The position numbers were made by a program, and so were the translations under genes. Shown in pieces: positions 1,284 through 42,865 of a stretch of DNA of 43,485 nt (positions are counted from its first letter, which is position 1; each line of letters starts with the position of its first letter). Under the pieces are notes generated by a model that saw nothing but the letters and a program-made list of their open reading frames with translations, ran no database searches and was not told the origin of the DNA. Source of the DNA: Syntrophobacterales bacterium (GTDB lineage: Bacteria > Desulfobacterota > Desulfobaccia > Desulfobaccales > 0-14-0-80-60-11). The stretch lies in contig JAGVAH010000113.1 of NCBI GenBank assembly GCA_020060385.1, forward strand, positions 1 through 43,485. Direction: 5' to 3'.

Positions 1284-1299
1284 AAGCTAATATCCCCAA

Positions 1300-2634
1300 A
1301 TGGCAACGAAAAACGAAAAACGAAAAGCGAAAAACAGGCTTTTCCGCATCATTACCTTCGGCTGCAAGGTGAACCAGTGCGATTCCGTGGGCCTGGCCCA
1401 GGAACTGGCGGCCCAGGGCTGGGAGGCCGCGCCCTCGGGAGCGGCCCCGGACTTGATCCTGGTGAACACCTGCACGGTCACCGCCCGGGCGGACCAGCAG
1501 GCCCGCCAGGCCCTGCGCCGCCTGGCCCGGGACTATCCGGGGGTGCCCCTCTGGGTCACCGGCTGTTACGCCCAGCGGGCCCCGGGGGAGCTGGCCGCGC
1601 TCCCCGGAGTGCAGGCGGTCCTGGGGAACCGGGAAAAGGCTAGGCTGACCTCTTATCTGGCGCAACTTCAGGAAGACCAGCAGCCCCGACTGCAAGTGGG
1701 GTCCTTTGTTCCCTGCGAAGAATTTCAGACCCTGCCGGCCCCCATCTCCCCCGGCCACACCCGGCCCCGGCTGAAAATCCAGGACGGCTGCGAACATCAC
1801 TGCACTTATTGCATCGTCCCCCAGGTGCGGGGCCCCCGGCGCAGCCTCCCCCCCGGGGAGGTGGCCGCGGCCCTGGAGCAGCTGGCCGCCGGGGGCTACC
1901 AGGAAGTGGTGCTCACCGGGGTCAACCTGGGGCAATACGGCCTGGACCTGGCGCCGCCGCTAACTCTAGCGGCCCTGCTGGGGGCAGTCCGCTCCCGGCC
2001 CCGTCCGCCCCGGCTGCGCCTCAGCTCCCTGGAGCCCCAGGAGGTGACCACCCCGCTGCTCCGGGAACTGGCCGCGTTTCCCGGTTTCTGCCCCCATTTC
2101 CATCTGCCCCTGCAAAGCGGCGCGGCCCCGGTCCTGGCGGCCATGGGCCGGGATTACACCCCCTCCGAATTTCACGATTTGGTCCAGGAAATCTGCCGCT
2201 GTTTTCCCGGCCCGGGTCTGGGCCTGGACATCCTGGTGGGCTTTCCCGGCGAAACCGGGGCCGACTTCGAGGCCACCCGCTCCCTGGTGGCGTCCCTGCC
2301 GGTGACCTATCTCCACGTCTTTCCCTTTTCCCCCCGGCCCGGCACCCCTGCGGCCCGGCTGCCCCGGGTACCGGCCCAAGAGGTCCAACAGCGGGCCCAA
2401 GTCATGCGGGAGTTGGGACAGGCCAAAAAGAGAGAATTTTTGGAGGCGCAGATGGGAAAGACCGGGGAGGTCCTGGTGGAAGCCTCTGCGCCGCAAGCTG
2501 GCCTCCTCCGAGGTCTCAGCGACCATTACCTGCGGGTATTAGTCCCCGGTTCCTTGTCCTTGCAAAACCGCATTCTGCCGGTGCGCTTCCAGGAGGTGCG
2601 GGGGGAGGCCCTGGTGGGGGAGATCATCGGGTAA
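1300..2634 (+). CDS. mtaB: tRNA t6A37 methylthiotransferase MtaB (MiaB-like radical SAM)
   Basis: Radical SAM enzyme that adds a methylthio group to N6-threonylcarbamoyladenosine at position 37 of ANN-decoding tRNAs. The N-terminal UPF0004 domain shows the second cluster's cysteines, C22 (in TFGCKVNQ), C58 and C89. The TFGCKVNQ form points to MtaB rather than MiaB or RimO. The radical SAM CxxxCxxC is C164, C168 and C171. A TRAM-like domain ends the 444-residue protein. The first dozen codons are a heptanucleotide tandem repeat (1306-1333), giving an unusual Lys/Asn/Glu-rich N-terminus. No Shine-Dalgarno precedes ATG 1300; a TAATAT box ends 6 nt before it. Because L14 already leads into the conserved core, the start cannot lie much further in. 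Confidence 0.92.
   Translation: MATKNEKRKAKNRLFRIITFGCKVNQCDSVGLAQELAAQGWEAAPSGAAPDLILVNTCTVTARADQQARQALRRLARDYPGVPLWVTGCYAQRAPGELAALPGVQAVLGNREKARLTSYLAQLQEDQQPRLQVGSFVPCEEFQTLPAPISPGHTRPRLKIQDGCEHHCTYCIVPQVRGPRRSLPPGEVAAALEQLAAGGYQEVVLTGVNLGQYGLDLAPPLTLAALLGAVRSRPRPPRLRLSSLEPQEVTTPLLRELAAFPGFCPHFHLPLQSGAAPVLAAMGRDYTPSEFHDLVQEICRCFPGPGLGLDILVGFPGETGADFEATRSLVASLPVTYLHVFPFSPRPGTPAARLPRVPAQEVQQRAQVMRELGQAKKREFLEAQMGKTGEVLVEASAPQAGLLRGLSDHYLRVLVPGSLSLQNRILPVRFQEVRGEALVGEIIG
1306..1333 (+). repeat. Heptanucleotide tandem repeat at the start of mtaB
   Basis: Four consecutive 7-bp units (ACGAAAA three times, then GCGAAAA) begin six bases into mtaB and encode residues of its N-terminal tail. Seven is not a multiple of three, so gain or loss of one unit would put the annotated ATG out of frame. 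Confidence 0.75.
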
Positions 2635-20565: not shown

Positions 20566-23500
20566 TTAAAAATCCAAATTAAACAGGACGTCGCCCCCGG
20601 AGTTGCGCCGGCCCACCTGGGATTCCACACTGAAGTACTTGTTCACTTTATATTCCAGGCGCACCTGGTTCGTATCGTCCCGGTAGAGGGGACTGGTCTT
20701 GCGTTCAAAGGTAACGGTGAGGTCTTTGGTAATGGGCTTGGCGATGCCCATGGTTTGCCGTCCTTCAGATTGGCCGCTTTGTAAAGAAACATTACCCACC
20801 AGGGGGAAATCCTTCCCCAAAATCTCCTGGATCTTCTGGGCGGTGACCCCCCCAGGATGCCCAAGGCCTGTTGGCCCACGGTGAGATATTCTTCCCGGGT
20901 GAGGGTCTGGGCGGGGCGGCCGAACATCAGGTAGGCCAGCATATCCGGGGGAGATAAGGGGGGAATGCTCTCCATCTTCACCTGGGGTTTGTTGGCGGGA
21001 CCGGAGGCGGTCAGGATCAAGGTGATATCGGCTATCTCGTAGGTGGCCCGGCCTTCGAGGGTCGCCTCCCCCTGGGGTTTTCCCGGGAAGCGGATCTCGG
21101 CCCGTTCTATTTTAAAAGGGCGCCTCTGCAATTCATAGGTGCCCTTCAAGGCCCGCAGCGTCCCGGACATGTAAGTGGGCTCACCTGGCCGTTTCCGGGC
21201 CTTGATGGTCCCGGCCAACTCCACCCGCAGGCGTTTGTCAATGATCCAGGCGTCGCCAGGCGCGTCCAGGGTGATATCCATCCGCATATTTTTCCACAGG
21301 GCCGGTTCCCCGGCCTTAGGGGCCTTGGCCCCGGGGGGCGATGGGGGCTTTTTCAAAACGATGTCCTGATGAATGCCGGTCTGGAAGAAGCCCGGGTGAA
21401 AAGAGGACTTGGAGACCACCAGCCGCCCCTTCAGAAGGGGGGCGGAACTGGGGCCGGTTAAGGCAACGCTGCCGCTGCCGAAGGCCTCGGCGCCCCCTCG
21501 CCCCAGGCCATGAAAATCCTGGAGCTGGGCCCGGACATCAAACTTTTGCGGCCAAAACGCGGCCATGGTGATGGAACCGTGGATGTGGGCGGTACCGCCG
21601 CTCTCCAGGGCGATATCGGGGATGACCAGCTTTTCCCCTTGCAGGGAGGCTTCCCCCGGCAGGAGCTTAAAGGGCGGGCCCGCCACCCGGAGCTGCAGCG
21701 TTCCCTCCCCCCAGCGGATGGTGCCGGATACCCGGGGGTGACGTGGATCCCCCTGCCACTGGGCCTTAATATTAAGGGCCCCGCTGGCGCTCTGCACCCC
21801 CGGAGTCAGGGCGGTAAGCAAAGCCAGATTGGCGTTTTCACCCTGGACTCGAAAATCCAGGTCCCGCTCCCCCCAGTCCCATCCCAGGGGGCTGAAGGAC
21901 AACTTCAGGGGAATCCTGCCGTCCCAGACCAGACGCGGCCCTGAAGGTTTTTCTTCCACGCTTCCCTTTAAAATCAGGTTCCCTTCCCGGTAGTTTAAAG
22001 AGGTTTGCAGAGAGCGGAAAGGAAAGTCCCCCCATTTACCGGGTCCCCAGGTAAACTGGCCTTCCATGGCGGGATGCCGCAGACTGCCGGTGAGATCCAA
22101 CTGGCCCTGGATCTTCCCTGCCAGCGACGCCCCTTTGAACTCCAGGAGACTGGCGGGGAGGTCCACAGCCTCCAGGCGGGCGGCCAGCCCCTCGCCCTGG
22201 GATTGGGCCCTGAGGGTGAGGCGGCCAGCATTGACGCGCCAGGTGGCCGGCCCCAATTCCAGGCCGGGCTGGAAACGGAGGTGGATGGGGCTGGTGTTCA
22301 TGGCCGAAACTCTGGGAGTGTCCAGACTGCAGCGCTCAAAGGTGAGGACCCGGGGTTGCGCCAGCAGATCGGCCCTTCCCTGGATCTCCGCCCGCAGTCC
22401 CTGGGGGGAGGAGGCGGTGAAACGGAGCCGCCACTTCCCCCCATCCCCCTGGCTGTGGCCGGCTGCCTGGGCAAAGACCCCCACCGGGGTCTTTAGACCC
22501 TGGCCTTGAATCTCCAGGCTGCCGGCAGAGGGCGGCCAGCCCCGGCCCCCGGCCTTGAGGGCGACCTTTTCCCAGGCGAAATCGTGCCAGGAAAGCCTCT
22601 GGCCTTGGGCCTGGCAGGTGAATTGGGGGGCGGCCCAGGGGCCTTTCCACGCGCCTTCCCCGGCCACCCGCCCCCCCAAGGACTTGGGCAGAAGCGGCCA
22701 GGTGCCGTCCAGGGTCAGGCTCCCTTTGCCTTGCAGATCCACTCCCTGGGGATCCACCGCACCTTTCAGGTCCGCGGCCAGGGTCCCCAATTTGACCTGG
22801 GCCTGGGCAATCTCCAGCCTGGAGCCCTTTAAAGAGAGGCGGGCCCGCAGATCCTTCAAGGGCTGCTGCCCCCACTGGCCCCGGGCTTCCAGGTCCCCGG
22901 CCAGCGCCAAGGGAGCGGCCGGGAGAGCGCCCGGCAATTGGCATTTTCCGGAAAATTTACCACTGAGAAGGCTGTTGGCGGTTGCGGTTAGACCCCAGAG
23001 TTCGGGCCGGAAGCCTTCAGCCTGAATCTTCACCTCCCCGGCCCGGGAAGAGAGCAAGGGGCCGGACAGGGTGGCGCTCAAGACCCCGAAGTTGCCCCGC
23101 AAGTCTCCCTGGAGCCGCTGCTCCCGGCCATCGGCCTTCAAGGTCAGCCGCAGGTGCTCCACTTTGGCCGTCTGGCAGGTGAAAGGGCGGCCTTGGAGGG
23201 TGCACTCCAGGTTCCGGGGGGGCCAGGACAGACCTGCGCCTTGCACCCGGAGCTGCAAGCCCAGGGGCGGCAGTTTTTTCAGCCTGGCAGCCCAGCTGCC
23301 TTCACCCACGGCCAAGATTTGGGGCCGCAGGCCGTTGAGGTCCAGGTCCACCGCATAATGCCACTCCCCGGCCCGGTGTTGCACCTGACTTTTAAAAGAG
23401 AATCCCCCTGGGGTCAGGGGACCTTCGCCGCTGATGTCCAAGAGGGAAGGAGTGCCGGTGAGTTGAAACTTCCCCCCCAGAGAAAGGGAGGCGGGCCAAT

Positions 23501-24278
23501 GCCGCCAGACCCGGCGCATCTCTGCCCCGGGGAGGGGGCCCACCTCCCCCAGGAGCTTGCATTGGGGCTCGGCCTCATTAAAACGCACTTCCCCGGCCAG
23601 GGACACCAGGGGGTGGTTGGCCGCGGTTACCGACAAGGACAACAAATTAAGGAGATTGGAGCCATAAGTGAGGCGGGTTTGCAGGCCCAGCCGCCCCCAG
23701 GGGGTCTCGCCGCTGATGGAGGCCCGGCGCACCAGGATGGCTTGATCGGGCCGTTTGGGATGCAGCACGGTGAGAATCAGTTGCAAGTCCAGGTCCCGGT
23801 AATTTTGGGTGGTCCCGGCCCGGGTCAGGGTAACCTCTCCGCGCTTGATGGTGATCCGGGGAAAATCGAGGGTGTGGAAAGGAGGAGGAGGCTTGGGGCG
23901 GAAGAAGTTGCTGACGTTCCAGCGGCCTTCCCGGTCTGCGGTGAGGGTGAGGTGCGGCTCGTAAATGGCCAGGTTGGCGATCACCGGCTGCAGTTTGATA
24001 AAGGAGAGGAGAGAAAAGCGGATATCCAGCCCCGCAGCCCGGAGCACCTCCCCCTGGCGGCCCCGTATGGTCACCCCCCGGAAATGGAGGCCGGTGAGGT
24101 AGTTGCCCCGCACCTCCTGGACTTCGATCTCCCCGTAGATGCGGCTTTGGGCGAAGTCCACCAGGCGGTGGCCCCCCCAGGTCCAGACCGCGTCGGTCTG
24201 CAAAAGCGGCCAGAGGGCCAGGGCCCCCACGATGATCACCGCCGCCAGGGCCAGGAGGAGATACCGGAGACGCCGCAT
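20566..24278 (-). CDS. tamB: TamB, translocation and assembly module, with an apparent -1 frameshift
   Basis: Large inner-membrane-anchored protein spanning the periplasm as a beta-rich conduit; it works with TamA in outer-membrane assembly and lipid transport. An N-terminal helix (RYLLLALAAVIIVGALALWPLL) is followed by AsmA-like and long repetitive beta segments. The C-terminal DUF490 region has TYEIADITLILTASGPANKPQVKMESIPPLSPPDMLAYLMFG. In the C7 run at 20847-20853 (G7 in the coding strand) the frame breaks: the conserved end, VTAQKIQEILGKDFPLVGNVSLQ to a final GGDVLFNLDF, is in the -1 frame and stops at 20566. Joined, the protein would have about 1237 residues. Read straight, it ends at 20643 in an unrelated tail. 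No SD precedes the ATG; TGATAGAAT ends 5 nt before it. Confidence 0.88.
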
Positions 24279-24283
24279 AGTTT

Positions 24284-24292
24284 ATTCTATCA
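24284..24292 (-). promoter_or_regulatory. Extended -10-like element at the tamB start
   Basis: On the minus strand TGATAGAAT has the extended -10 form and ends only 5 nt before the tamB ATG, with no Shine-Dalgarno between. If active, its transcript would start at or very near the start codon. Confidence 0.4.
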
Positions 24293-33997: not shown

Positions 33998-34915
33998 ATG
34001 TTCTGGCAAAAGACCCTGGCGCGTCCATTAAAATTTGCCGGCATCGGCCTCCACGGGGGCCGGCCGGTAGCAGTGACCATGCATCCGGCCCAGGCTAATC
34101 AGGGGCTGCGGTTCATACGCACCGATCTTCCCGGACGCCCCCAGATCCTGGCCCATTACTCCCGGGTGGTGGATACCACCCGGGCCACTACCTTGGGGGA
34201 GGGAGACTGCACCCTGTCCACGGTGGAACACCTCCTGGCCGCCTTGCGGGGGCTGGGGGTGGACAACGCCCTGATCCACGTGGCAGGCCCCGAACTCCCC
34301 ATCATGGACGGCAGCGCTGCCCCCTTTGCCCGGCTCCTGACGGAGACGGGTCTCCGCTCCCTGCCCTGGCCCCGGCCCCATCTCCTGATTGAGAGGCCCG
34401 TGGAGCTGCGGGTAGGAGACCAATGCATGCGGGTGAGCCCTGGAGACCCCCGCATCACTTATACCATTGACTTTCCTCATCCTTTAATCCGCCGCCAGCG
34501 CTTTACCGTCCCCATGAAACCCGGAGCCTTCCGCCGGGAGATCGCTCCGGCCCGCACCTTCGGCTTTTTAAAAGAGGTGGAGTACCTCAAGGCCCACGGC
34601 CTGGCCCTGGGAGGGTCCCTGGACAACGCCGTGGTCCTGGACGACACCAGGGTCTTAAATGCCGGAGGCCTGAGATTTCCAGAGGAGTGCGTGCGCCACA
34701 AGATTCTGGACGCGGTGGGGGACCTGGCCCTCCTGGGCCTCCCCCTGCTGGGACGCCTGGAGGTGACCCGGGGCAGCCACGCCCTGCACCTCCGCTTCTT
34801 GGAGGCCCTGGTGGCCCGGGAAGACGCCTGGCGCCTCTGGGTGCCTTCCGCCCGGGAGAGGTACGCCCAGCCCCACTGGGCCGCCGCGCCCCTTTGGGAG
34901 GGCGTGCCGGCTTAA
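33998..34915 (+). CDS. lpxC: LpxC, UDP-3-O-acyl-N-acetylglucosamine deacetylase
   Basis: Zinc amidase that commits UDP-3-O-acyl-GlcNAc to lipid A synthesis in the cytoplasm. 305 residues, normal. GIGLHGGRPV opens domain I. The zinc ligands are H78 (STVEHLLAAL), H234 and D238 (CVRHKILDAVGDLALLG), and the catalytic His is H261 (SHALH). The SLDNAVVLDD loop is present. AGAGG precedes ATG 33998. A strong terminator follows 36 nt after the stop, so it is transcribed as a single gene, apart from other lipid A genes. Its presence shows a lipid-A-bearing outer membrane. Confidence 0.95.
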   Translation: MFWQKTLARPLKFAGIGLHGGRPVAVTMHPAQANQGLRFIRTDLPGRPQILAHYSRVVDTTRATTLGEGDCTLSTVEHLLAALRGLGVDNALIHVAGPELPIMDGSAAPFARLLTETGLRSLPWPRPHLLIERPVELRVGDQCMRVSPGDPRITYTIDFPHPLIRRQRFTVPMKPGAFRREIAPARTFGFLKEVEYLKAHGLALGGSLDNAVVLDDTRVLNAGGLRFPEECVRHKILDAVGDLALLGLPLLGRLEVTRGSHALHLRFLEALVAREDAWRLWVPSARERYAQPHWAAAPLWEGVPA

Positions 34916-34950
34916 CAGTCGGTTTTCGGGCTGCAGTTTTCATTTGCCAT

Positions 34951-34984
34951 AGGGCAGGTCAATTGCTTGACCTGCCCTTTTTTT
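34951..34984 (+). terminator. Intrinsic terminator of lpxC
   Basis: AGGGCAGGTCAA (34951-34962), loop TTGC, TTGACCTGCCCT (34967-34978), then a run of seven T. Twelve perfect pairs. Confidence 0.95.
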
Positions 34985-34990
34985 AATGCC

Positions 34991-35017
34991 TCGACAGGCC
35001 GGTCTTGGTGCTACAAT
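34991..35017 (+). promoter_or_regulatory. Promoter with extended -10 (copy A)
   Basis: TCGACA (34991-34996), 15-nt spacer, TACAAT (35012-35017) preceded by TGC. The same layout, CCTCGACAGG to GTGCTACAATC, recurs at 35376-35403. An ATG (35024) begins 6 nt after the -10; it opens a 39-codon frame overlapping the next gene. Confidence 0.65.
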
Positions 35018-35103
35018 CGGAGTATGCGCCTGGTGCTCAACCTAATCATTTTGCCATCTTTCTTCATAATCTTCCAAAGGTTGGGCTTCAGGGAGGAAAA
35101 GAT

Positions 35104-35313
35104 ATGGGAATTCGTTATCTTGCCGATTCAGATACGGCGCTGATTGAGTTCTCCTCTGCACCAGTGGTGGAAACCAGGGAAATCACAGAGAACCTCTATA
35201 TTGATTTGGATCAGCAAGGCAATCTGGTAAGCATGACCATCGAACACGCCAAAGTGCAGGCCAATATTTGCGAAGTGTCATTTTTGCAAATGGAGAAAAG
35301 CATTGTCTCATGA
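35104..35313 (+). CDS. DUF2283-family small protein
   Basis: Protein of 69 residues matching the DUF2283 pattern: an early DSDTALIEFSSAPVVETREI, then ENLYIDLDQQGNLVSMTIEHA. The family consists of small single-domain proteins, often found beside toxin-antitoxin-like DUF4258 genes, with unknown function. The start is ATG 35104, since GGGAGG lies 7 nt before it; longer versions from 35005 would overlap the promoter. No partner gene is adjacent. An out-of-frame 39-codon frame from ATG 35024 (hydrophobic, MRLVLNLIILPSFFIIFQ) overlaps its first 13 codons. Confidence 0.75.
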   Translation: MGIRYLADSDTALIEFSSAPVVETREITENLYIDLDQQGNLVSMTIEHAKVQANICEVSFLQMEKSIVS

Positions 35314-35375
35314 AACAGTATATTTCCTAAGAATACTTGGTACTTATCAAAACCTTCTTCCACCTCTTTAATTCC

Positions 35376-35403
35376 TCGACAGGTCCCCCCTTTGTGCTAC
35401 AAT
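35376..35403 (+). promoter_or_regulatory. Promoter with extended -10 (copy B)
   Basis: TCGACA (35376-35381), 16-nt spacer, TGC then TACAAT (35398-35403). It resembles copy A at 34991. The ATG of the next gene begins at 35410, where transcription would be expected to start, and no Shine-Dalgarno is present; this suggests a leaderless mRNA. Confidence 0.65.
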
Positions 35404-35409
35404 CTCCCC

Positions 35410-37848
35410 ATGCTCCAGACATCTTTTAGTATCCCTTTCATACCTTTCCGTAAGTATCTTCATTTATTAAAATTAATAACTGCTTTGGCGATCCTCGCCT
35501 TTCTGGCTGGCTGCGCGCCGGCCCTGCCGCCAGCGGCACCGCCGCCGGAGGTGGAGCTCCCGCCCCCGCCACCCCCGAAACCCGCAGCCGGCCTGCCCAA
35601 GGTCCAGGACCCCCGCTTTGCCCGCCTGGATGGCGTGGCCCGGCAGGAGCTGGCCGCCGGGCAGGTCCCCGGGGCCGTCATTTTTGTGGGCCACCAGGGC
35701 GAGATCGTCTATCACCGGGCCTTGGGCCAGCGCACCGTGGAGCCATATTTCCAGGCCATGACCGAAGACACTATCTTTGATCTGGCCTCCCTCACCAAGG
35801 TGGTGGCCACCACCACCGCCATCATGCAGCTGGTGGATGAGGGCCGGGTGCGGTTGAAAGATCCCGTGTCCAAATACTGGCCGGAATTCGCGGCCAACGG
35901 CAAGAGTCGCATCACCATCCGCCACCTCCTGACCCACACCTCCGGTCTGCGGGCGGAGGTGCGGTCCCGGCCCCCCTGGCATGACTACCAAGGAGGCATG
36001 GCGGCCATTGTCGCCGACCACCCCGTCAATCCCCCGGGCACCCATTTCCGTTACAGCGACGCCAATTTCATCGTCCTAGGGGAGATCGTGCACCGGGTCT
36101 CGGGCCTGCCTCTGGACGTCTACTGCACCCGGGAGATCTTCAGGCCCCTGGGCCTCAGGGATACGACTTTCAGGCCCAAGGGCAGCCAGAAAAACCGCAT
36201 CGCCCCCACGGACCTGCGCTGGGGCAAGGTGCATGATCCCACGGCCCATCGCCTGGGCGGGGTGGCCGGTAACGCCGGGGTCTTCTCCACCGCGGACGAC
36301 CTGGCCGTTTTTGTGCAAATGCTGCTGGACGGCGGCGTCAGCCGGGGCCGGCAGATTCTCAGCCCCCAGGCAGTGGCCGCCATGACCAAACCCTGCCAAA
36401 TCCCGGGGAACGCCACCCGCCGGGGCCTGGGCTGGGATATCTGCTCCCCCTACAGCCGGGTCTTCAACGCCGCCTTCCCCATGGGCTCCTTCGGGCACAC
36501 CGGCTATACCGGCACCTCCCTGTGGGTCGATCCCAAGTCCAAGACCTTCGTGATCATCCTCACCAACCGCCTGCATCCCCACGGCCGGGGGCAGGTCAAG
36601 GCCCTGCGAGCCCGCATCTCCACGGCCGTAGCCCAGATCATGCATTTGGGAAAACCGGCCAGGGCCGCCTTGGGGGGAGCGGAGCCGGTAATGGAGGGCC
36701 ACGGCGCCAGCGATTCCCCGGATAAAGTGCGGAGCGGCCTGGAAGTCCTGGCGGCCTCCGGCTTCGCCCCCCTCAAGGGCAAGAATATCGGGGTAATCAC
36801 CAATCACACGGGGGTGGACGGGGCCAGGCGCTCCACCCTCAGACTGCTGCTCCAGGCCCCGGGAATGAAGGTCAAGGCCATCTTCAGCCCGGAGCACGGG
36901 CTCTCCGGCAAGCTGGATGAGAAGATCGCCTCCGGCAGGGACGGGGCCACCGGGCTGCCGGTCTACAGCCTCTATGGCAAGGTCATGAAGCCCACGCCCG
37001 GGATGCTTAAGGGACTGGACGCCCTAGTCTATGATATCCAGGACGTGGGCGCCCGTTACTATACCTATATAACCACCATGGCCTATGCCATGGAGGCCGC
37101 GGCCGCCGCGGGCCTGGATTTTTACGTGTTGGACCGGCCCGACCCCCTGACCGCGGCCAGCGTCCAGGGGCCGGTCCTGGACCCGGATCTGCGCTCCTAT
37201 ATCGGTTATTTCCCGTTGCCGGTGCGTTATGGCATGACCGTGGGGGAGCTGGCCCAGCTCTTTAACCGGGAGAGACATATCGGCGCCCGGTTGCAGGTGG
37301 TAAAGATGGCGGGCTACCAGCGGGGGGCCTGGTTCGATGAGACCGGATTGCCCTGGATCAATCCCTCCCCCAATATCCGCTCCCTGGCCCAGGCGATCCT
37401 TTACGCCGGGGTGGGCCTGGTGGAATCCGCCAACGTCAGCGTGGGCCGAGGCACGGCCATGCCCTTTGAAATAGTGGGCGCGCCCTGGATTTCCGGGGCC
37501 CGGCTGGCCCGTTACCTGAACCAGCGGCAAATCGCCGGAGTCACCTTTGAACCGGTGACCTTTGTGCCTGCGGCCAGCCCCTACCGGGGGCAGAGATGCG
37601 GCGGGGTGCGCCTGCGCCTGGAGGACCGGGCCGCCCTGGATGCGCCGGCAGCGGGCATCGAATTGGCGGCCGCCCTGTACCATCTCTTTCCCGGCAAGTT
37701 CCAAATCGACCGGACCCTGGGCATGGTGGGCTCGCGGCGGGTCCTCCAGGAGATCAAGAACGGCCAAGACCCCCGGGAGATTAAACGGAAATGGCAGCCC
37801 GGGCTCAACGCCTTCTGCCGCCTGCGGTCCAAGTATCTGCTCTATTGA
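35410..37848 (+). CDS. Lipoprotein: serine hydrolase (class C beta-lactamase fold) fused to NamZ/DUF1343 muramidase
   Basis: 812-residue two-domain envelope protein. The lipoprotein signal has its lipobox LAGC at 32-35, followed by a Pro-rich linker (about 37-63). The first domain is a class C beta-lactamase/penicillin-binding-like serine hydrolase, with nucleophile S127 and K130 in SLTK, YSDAN as the Tyr motif, and GHTGYTGTS as the third motif. From about residue 450 comes a DUF1343 domain, the family of the exo-N-acetylmuramidase NamZ: NIGVITNHTGVDG, IFSPEHGLSG, YDIQDVGARYYTYITTM, DRPDPL and WINPSPNIRS. Together they suggest trimming of peptide and sugar parts of peptidoglycan in the periplasm; specificity is unknown. 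The start ATG 35410 is used because of the promoter position; an upstream in-frame start at 35392 falls inside the promoter. Confidence 0.9.
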   Translation: MLQTSFSIPFIPFRKYLHLLKLITALAILAFLAGCAPALPPAAPPPEVELPPPPPPKPAAGLPKVQDPRFARLDGVARQELAAGQVPGAVIFVGHQGEIVYHRALGQRTVEPYFQAMTEDTIFDLASLTKVVATTTAIMQLVDEGRVRLKDPVSKYWPEFAANGKSRITIRHLLTHTSGLRAEVRSRPPWHDYQGGMAAIVADHPVNPPGTHFRYSDANFIVLGEIVHRVSGLPLDVYCTREIFRPLGLRDTTFRPKGSQKNRIAPTDLRWGKVHDPTAHRLGGVAGNAGVFSTADDLAVFVQMLLDGGVSRGRQILSPQAVAAMTKPCQIPGNATRRGLGWDICSPYSRVFNAAFPMGSFGHTGYTGTSLWVDPKSKTFVIILTNRLHPHGRGQVKALRARISTAVAQIMHLGKPARAALGGAEPVMEGHGASDSPDKVRSGLEVLAASGFAPLKGKNIGVITNHTGVDGARRSTLRLLLQAPGMKVKAIFSPEHGLSGKLDEKIASGRDGATGLPVYSLYGKVMKPTPGMLKGLDALVYDIQDVGARYYTYITTMAYAMEAAAAAGLDFYVLDRPDPLTAASVQGPVLDPDLRSYIGYFPLPVRYGMTVGELAQLFNRERHIGARLQVVKMAGYQRGAWFDETGLPWINPSPNIRSLAQAILYAGVGLVESANVSVGRGTAMPFEIVGAPWISGARLARYLNQRQIAGVTFEPVTFVPAASPYRGQRCGGVRLRLEDRAALDAPAAGIELAAALYHLFPGKFQIDRTLGMVGSRRVLQEIKNGQDPREIKRKWQPGLNAFCRLRSKYLLY

Positions 37849-42600: not shown

Positions 42601-42865
42601 GGCCGTGCTAGACGGGGAGCTAGCGGTGCCCTGTGACCCGAAAGCCGCTTATGCGGGGTTGAAGTCCTTTCCGAGGGTTGCAGCGCATCCGGAGACGGCT
42701 GTCCCGGACGGCGGATTGGACCCCACGCAACAGACGCTGGTGAACCCCGTCAGGTCCGGAAGGAAGCAGCGGTAAATCAGGCGGTCTGTGTCGCGGCGGC
42801 TGCTAATCCTTGAACCCCCGGGCGGTCCCTCCGGATGAGGCGGATTCGAAGACGGGTGCACGGCC
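42601..42865 (+). ncRNA. ffs: Signal recognition particle RNA, large bacterial form (6S/4.5S-like scRNA)
   Basis: Identified by the domain IV signature GGTCCGGAAGGAAGCAGC (42753-42770), to which Ffh binds. The 5' part, CCGTGCTAGACGGGGAGCTAGCGGTGCCCTG-like, matches the Alu-domain-bearing Bacillus-type RNA. The ends pair: GGCCGTGC (42601-42608) with GCACGGCC (42858-42865), giving a 265-nt molecule, far longer than the roughly 114-nt 4.5S RNA of E. coli. It targets membrane and secreted proteins to the translocon with Ffh. No T-tract terminator follows directly, and no promoter was identified between it and HU. Confidence 0.93.

Follow-up and report, generated by a model that had tools for sequence, protein, structure and literature searches.

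Two cell-envelope genes of the window, by which we mean the whole stretch of 43,485 nt analysed here (contig C14 in a genome of 4.15 Mb and 175 contigs, from a relative of sulfate-reducing bacteria), are very probably expressed from leaderless mRNAs, as predicted from sequence comparison: a namZ-type gene starting with the ATG at 35410 and a tamB-like gene starting with the ATG at 24278. We give a probability of about 0.78 to a reading in which these two genes are leaderless, the first of two promoter copies (copy 1) is a duplicate of the namZ promoter driving a DUF2283 gene with its own Shine-Dalgarno (SD) sequence, a box before mtaB is due to chance, and leaderless genes are a minority. An earlier note on this DNA had proposed that leaderless mRNAs are common in the organism. 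This general claim is narrowed to a precise one, namely that two genes are kept leaderless across a genus or a family.

At both genes the gap between the end of a -10 hexamer and the ATG falls within about 4-8 nt, and an SD sequence is lacking. The ATG is secured by in-frame stops in several species and by aligned starts, and the layout is kept under divergence: for namZ in 10 of 14 orthologs of the order, and for tamB in 6/6 orthologs of the genus and in one further genome (G011), i.e. 7 of the 20 loci overall. In the proposed mechanism, a promoter of the housekeeping sigma type would abut the coding region. With the hexamer ending 5-6 nt before the ATG, RNA polymerase would start at the A of the ATG or within 1-2 nt of it, and the mRNAs would be translated by leaderless initiation without SD. 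Transcription start, mode of translation and the duplication of the promoter are what we infer. The layout helps to fix the two start codons, and the set of orthologs is clean material for studying why single genes stay leaderless in a bacterium in which SD-led genes prevail. Coordinates are listed in Table 1.

Table 1. Coordinates of the features discussed; prefixes L mark loci outside the window.
Feature	Position	Strand	Remarks
TAATAT box	1288-1293	+	Ends 6 nt before mtaB ATG; weak (4/6), not conserved
mtaB	1300-2634	+	TIGR01579, above cut-off
tamB-like gene	20643-24278	-	PF04357; predicted leaderless; in-frame TAA 6 nt before ATG
Extended -10 TGATAGAAT	24284-24292	-	Ends 5 nt before tamB ATG
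Intrinsic terminator after lpxC	34951-34985	+	12-bp stem, T run, z -5.38
Promoter copy 1	34991-35017	+	-35 TCGACA 34991-34996, TG 35009-35010, -10 TACAAT 35012-35017
39-codon ORF	35024-35143	+	ATG 6 nt past -10 of copy 1; overlaps DUF2283 start; probably not a gene start
Shine-Dalgarno GGGAGG	35091-35096	+	7 nt before DUF2283 ATG
DUF2283 gene, 69 aa	35104-35313	+	PF10049, E 2.1e-13
Promoter copy 2	35376-35403	+	-35 TCGACA 35376-35381, TG 35395-35396, -10 TACAAT 35398-35403
namZ-type gene	35410-37848	+	Beta-lactamase domain and NamZ; lipobox by eye; ATG 6 nt past -10; predicted leaderless
Bacterial large SRP RNA	42603-42863		RF01854, 137 bits
Dispersed element, examples	L164:15098-15223, L018:19030-19156, L157:8444-8554, L198:7125-7250, others		

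The twin promoter

Two promoter-like copies, each with an ATG exactly 6 nt past its -10, had been described in the earlier note, and their positions are confirmed. The copies are near-identical (34991-35018 and 35376-35404), with blocks that are 16/17 and 14/15 identical and start 385 and 386 nt apart, and the gap from the end of TACAAT to the ATG is 6 nt in both (ATG 35024 and ATG 35410). The pattern TCGACAGG-N(8-10)-GTGCTACAATC matched twice, at 34991 and 35376, compared to no match in 100 shuffles; the twin promoter is beyond chance. A generic sigma-70 scan of 34850-35500 listed copy 2 alone, its hexamers being 16 nt apart, while the 15 nt of copy 1 lie outside the range of the scan. As this single match is no more than the shuffle mean of 0.7, the strength of the case is drawn from the repetition and from the orthologs. 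Our promoter scheme gave a score of 12.2 to copy 2, 10.7 to copy 1 and 3.4 to the element before mtaB.

The namZ-type gene

The promoter of the namZ-type gene, TCGACA/TGCTACAAT, ends 6 nt before the ATG at 35410. The 5' end of the gene was read in 14 genomes of the order, the window's own included, and ten of them have, close to the aligned start, an in-frame ATG that follows the end of a -10 (at least 5/6) at a distance of 5-7 nt. The gap is 6 nt in G000, G001, G003, G004 and G006, 7 nt in G002 and G013, and 5 nt in G008, G016 and G019. Sorted by kinship, the layout is found in 6/6 genomes of the genus, 10/12 of the family and 0/2 of the other family of the order. It is missing in G014, G022 and G024, whose 5' ends were read, and G007 has only a TATTAT, placed 8 nt before an ATG that precedes the aligned start by 24 nt. 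None of three more distant loci that were read (L052, L053 and L064) shows the layout, and L064 has an SD sequence.

Nine orthologs, chosen for having the motif, were aligned. All nine have promoter-scheme scores of 10.7-13.0, and TCGACA is found upstream in seven of them. In G008, G016 and G019 an in-frame stop stands 6 nt before the ATG, so that no earlier start is available. In ungapped columns the -10 hardly stands out (identity 0.43-0.48 versus 0.22-0.55 elsewhere), and a simple coding-score start caller placed the start of namZ 75 nt too far in. With the layout recurring in this way, a leaderless namZ is well supported by comparison.

The protein has 812 aa and consists of a beta-lactamase-fold domain joined to a full NamZ muramidase. 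The best NCBIfam match of the beta-lactamase-fold domain is PBP4B, below the cut-off of that family. Relatives of the protein are found in several phyla, judged by record title.

The tamB-like gene

The extended -10 that the earlier note had placed 5 nt before the tamB ATG is found at exactly that position, and the leaderless reading of this gene is likewise well supported by comparison. In all six genomes of the genus with a tamB match (G000-G004 and G006; no match was found in G005), exactly 5 nt separate the end of TGnTAnnAT from the aligned ATG; in G011 the gap after the extended -10 is 6 nt. An in-frame stop stands 6 nt before the ATG in 5/6 genomes of the genus, and G003 has two further in-frame ATGs upstream of the aligned start. 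The other 13 of the 20 loci read are without the layout: twelve have no fitting -10 at a spacer of 4-8 nt, and G028 has TATTAT at 7. G024, which is without the layout at namZ, is without it at tamB too. In windows of 6 nt, the mean pairwise identity is 0.55-0.77 over the last 18 nt before the gene versus 0.25-0.40 further upstream. This box, conserved amid upstream DNA that has diverged to near chance identity, we regard as the strongest single piece of evidence for the predicted leaderless mRNAs.

The AT-rich box before namZ and tamB could instead be an unstructured or S1-binding enhancer of translation, with transcription starting further upstream and yielding leaders without SD. According to PMC5397173, a bias towards AT before gene starts without SD is connected with leaderless mRNAs or with S1. 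Of the 834 called starts, 357 are without an SD match of 4 nt, so that either initiation without SD by other means or misplaced start calls have to be frequent. We nevertheless hold an enhancer to be unlikely, because TG-n-TAnnnT at tamB and TAnnAT together with the upstream TCGACA at namZ recur at a nearly fixed distance, and because the sequence around the tamB box is at chance identity. In addition to the abutting promoters, which we prefer as explanation, a promoter further upstream may be present at either gene.

DUF2283 and the ATG at 35024

For promoter copy 1 the earlier note had also proposed leaderless transcription, from the ATG at 35024, and this is not supported. The gene there is DUF2283, with its start at 35104 instead of 35024 and preceded by the SD sequence GGGAGG. 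Consequently, the statement that all of these genes lack a Shine-Dalgarno stands for namZ and tamB and falls for DUF2283. The only close ortholog of DUF2283 among 21 genomes is that of G002 (74-75% identity), located on the same contig as namZ and upstream of it. It starts at the same codon and has an SD-like AAGGAG at the same place; no copy-1 promoter was seen in the 180 nt upstream of it. A leaderless start at 35024 was rejected on the grounds that an SD-led gene follows just downstream and that the ORF has only 39 codons.

We see little prospect that the ATG at 35024 is a true leaderless start after all, of a hydrophobic small protein of 39 aa that overlaps DUF2283 and is coupled to it. 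The exact spacing of 6 nt and the intact ORF speak for such a protein; its first 38 codons found no match in a Pfam search, and the sequence differs at the G002 locus. With the SD-led DUF2283 downstream, copy 1 most likely gives an mRNA of this gene with a leader of about 80 nt, and the ATG found where transcription from copy 1 would start is probably there by accident. G001 has no DUF2283 between its namZ promoter and what seem to be the end of lpxC and the terminator, which the promoter follows directly; copy 1 (34991-35017) therefore probably arose by local duplication of the namZ promoter.

The box before mtaB

The TAATAT that had been noted to end 6 nt before the mtaB ATG at 1300 is indeed located there, and it is the leaderless reading of it that fails. 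When TANNNT (at least 4/6) was sought at spacers of 4-8 nt in 20 mtaB loci, it was found in the window's own locus and in 0/19 others, and none of the six other genomes of the genus has a box before the ATG. Identity upstream of mtaB is 0.19-0.39 within the genus. A leaderless mtaB was rejected, as the box is not kept in orthologs, and the element would be a product of chance.

The first codons of mtaB (1300-1345) consist of a low-complexity aacgaaaa repeat. Species of the genus differ in this repeat and share the first ATG.

Frequency of leaderless genes in the genome

The earlier note had suggested a genome-wide search for TGnTAnnAT-N(5-7)-ATG. It gave 42 matches, or 14.0 per spacing, and is not specific to the spacing: N(8-38) gave 367 matches, or 11.8 per spacing, from which 35.5 are expected at N(5-7) (p 0.16). 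The reversed pattern, used as a control, gave 15 matches for N(5-7) and 126 for N(8-38), both below the real pattern, and an excess at both spacings is as expected of promoters standing before genes at any distance. The window holds three of the 42 matches versus 0.44 expected by its length (p 0.01, post hoc).

Gene starts were called in 26% of the genome; these 1.10 Mb gave 860 genes and are 75% coding. The simple gene caller misplaces some starts, and therefore all candidate ATGs were taken in the later promoter counts. Before 837 called starts, SD core 4-mers peak at spacers of 5-10 nt, with 140 at spacer 7 compared to a background of about 12 per position. The 175-contig assembly has no match to a 16S 3'-end pattern, and this peak therefore stands in for the anti-SD. 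An SD match of at least 4 nt precedes 477 of the 834 called starts. Among 82 ortholog pairs with G001, the SD core is kept in both members of 30, and a -10 at a spacer of 4-8 nt is conserved in three, which are namZ, tamB and one pair for which an SD-led ATG downstream is the better start. Conserved -10s at spacings of 9-45 nt were found in seven pairs.

Promoter scores at spacers of 4-8 nt were compared to shuffled sequences. At a threshold of 9, all own stretches gave 13 versus 4.0 (757 genes), the own stretches without the window and one set picked by matches 5 versus 2.2 (513 genes), and 20 stretches taken in contig order 3 versus 1.2 (248 genes). G001 gave 4 versus 1.6 (165 genes, without contig C71) and G024 5 versus 1.6 (236 genes). 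At a threshold of 7 the numbers were 26 versus 14.7 (757 genes), 14 versus 9.8 (513 genes) and 6 versus 4.8 (248 contig-order genes) in the own genome, 8 versus 4.5 in G001 and 7 versus 5.7 in G024. The own stretches apart from the 20 lie on contigs bearing TGnTAnnAT-N(5-7)-ATG matches or, for C74, a match of another search; the 20 have the weakest signal. A cruder shuffle gave a larger excess (30 versus 6), and we relied on the finer one, which gave the 26 versus 14.7. As a share of genes, the excess of promoter-abutting starts comes to 0.5-1.5% with the threshold of 9; with that of 7 it is 0.8-2.1% in those rows for which it was calculated. Loose -10s (at least 5/6) at spacers of 4-8 nt show no excess in the own genome (14 versus 13.9 per five bins) and number 11 versus 5.1 in G001; extended -10s number 5 versus 0.9 and 3 versus 0.2, respectively.

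That leaderless mRNAs are common, making up tens of percent of the genes, is on these data highly improbable. It draws on the whole own sample, in which promoter scores exceed the shuffles at both thresholds, on the called starts without SD match and on the layout seen in some relatives at three further genes (see below). Against it stand the p of 0.16 for the pattern, the dominance of SD cores before called starts, the counts in the 20 stretches that were not picked by pattern matches, and the conservation of a -10 at spacers of 4-8 nt in three of the 82 pairs, compared to seven at 9-45 nt. With the SD peak strong and the promoter-abutting excess at about 0.5-2% of genes, the earlier claim of commonness is not borne out. 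Leaderless genes are by present evidence a small minority beside SD-led ones, roughly 0.5-2% of genes.

Relation to known leaderless systems

Many bacteria, among them delta-proteobacteria, have been described as having leaderless genes, and namZ and tamB would be new instances of this known kind. Table 2 of Zheng et al. 2011 (PMC3160421) gives leaderless genes in 8 of 33 delta-proteobacterial genomes, with a mean of 15.8%. The bacterial 'TA-led' genes described there have no SD and carry a TANNNT box some 12 nt ahead of the start codon. The namZ and tamB genes resemble them in having a TANNNT box before the start codon without SD, but the share of leaderless genes is far lower here, and it is orthologs of one family that give the support, not a signal across the genome. 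In Deinococcus-Thermus, as described in PMC12340547, a -10 motif abuts ORFs and yields leaderless mRNA for about 30% of them. The -10 abuts the ORF at namZ and tamB as well, whereas here this concerns a small minority, and at namZ a -35 recurs as well. PMC9581028 describes a class of genomes with abundant leaderless transcription. In such genomes the -10 should peak strongly right ahead of the starts across the whole genome; no such peak was found in the 26% covered here with the simple gene caller. Neither a transcript map nor a leaderless study for the order Desulfobaccales was among the literature matches listed, which is no proof of absence.

Further candidate genes and a dispersed element

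From 26 candidate rows and a further list, three genes outside the window were checked for conservation. For a gene of 358 aa at L161:4389, whose product found no Pfam match, the aligned ATG follows a -10 at a distance of 6 nt in 3/4 genomes of the genus with a match, the start being unreadable in the fourth. The leaderless layout was found for a radical SAM gene in 3/7 and for recO in 3/6 genomes of the genus. The layout in these relatives indicates that a small class of promoter-abutting genes exists in the genus. It is a doubtful idea that the leaderless genes form a set of envelope and repair genes (the tamB-like and namZ-type genes, perhaps with recO and the radical SAM gene), kept across a genus or family of Desulfobaccales in a genome dominated by SD-led genes, which would allow them to be translated separately from the majority, for instance under limited 30S initiation.

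Additionally, a dispersed palindromic element was observed between genes, with outward arms ATTCACCACAGAGRCACAGAG...CTCTGTGYCTCTGTGGTGAAT mostly placed around a terminator-like hairpin. Places with two arms measure 94-135 bp from end to end. We counted 15 arms in 1.10 Mb of the own genome, 19 in 0.32 Mb of G001 and 0 in 0.40 Mb of G024, and at 16 of 21 places a called gene boundary lies within 20 nt. An Rfam search with three of the loci gave no match, and the arm strings were found in no bacterial paper by title. At L014:15280-15319 and on the minus strand of L198 near 18512, the arm end TGTGGTAAAAT has the form of an extended -10. It ends 6 nt before the ATG of recO and, in G001, 4 nt before an ATG, and the terminator-like repeat may therefore double as a promoter abutting a gene.
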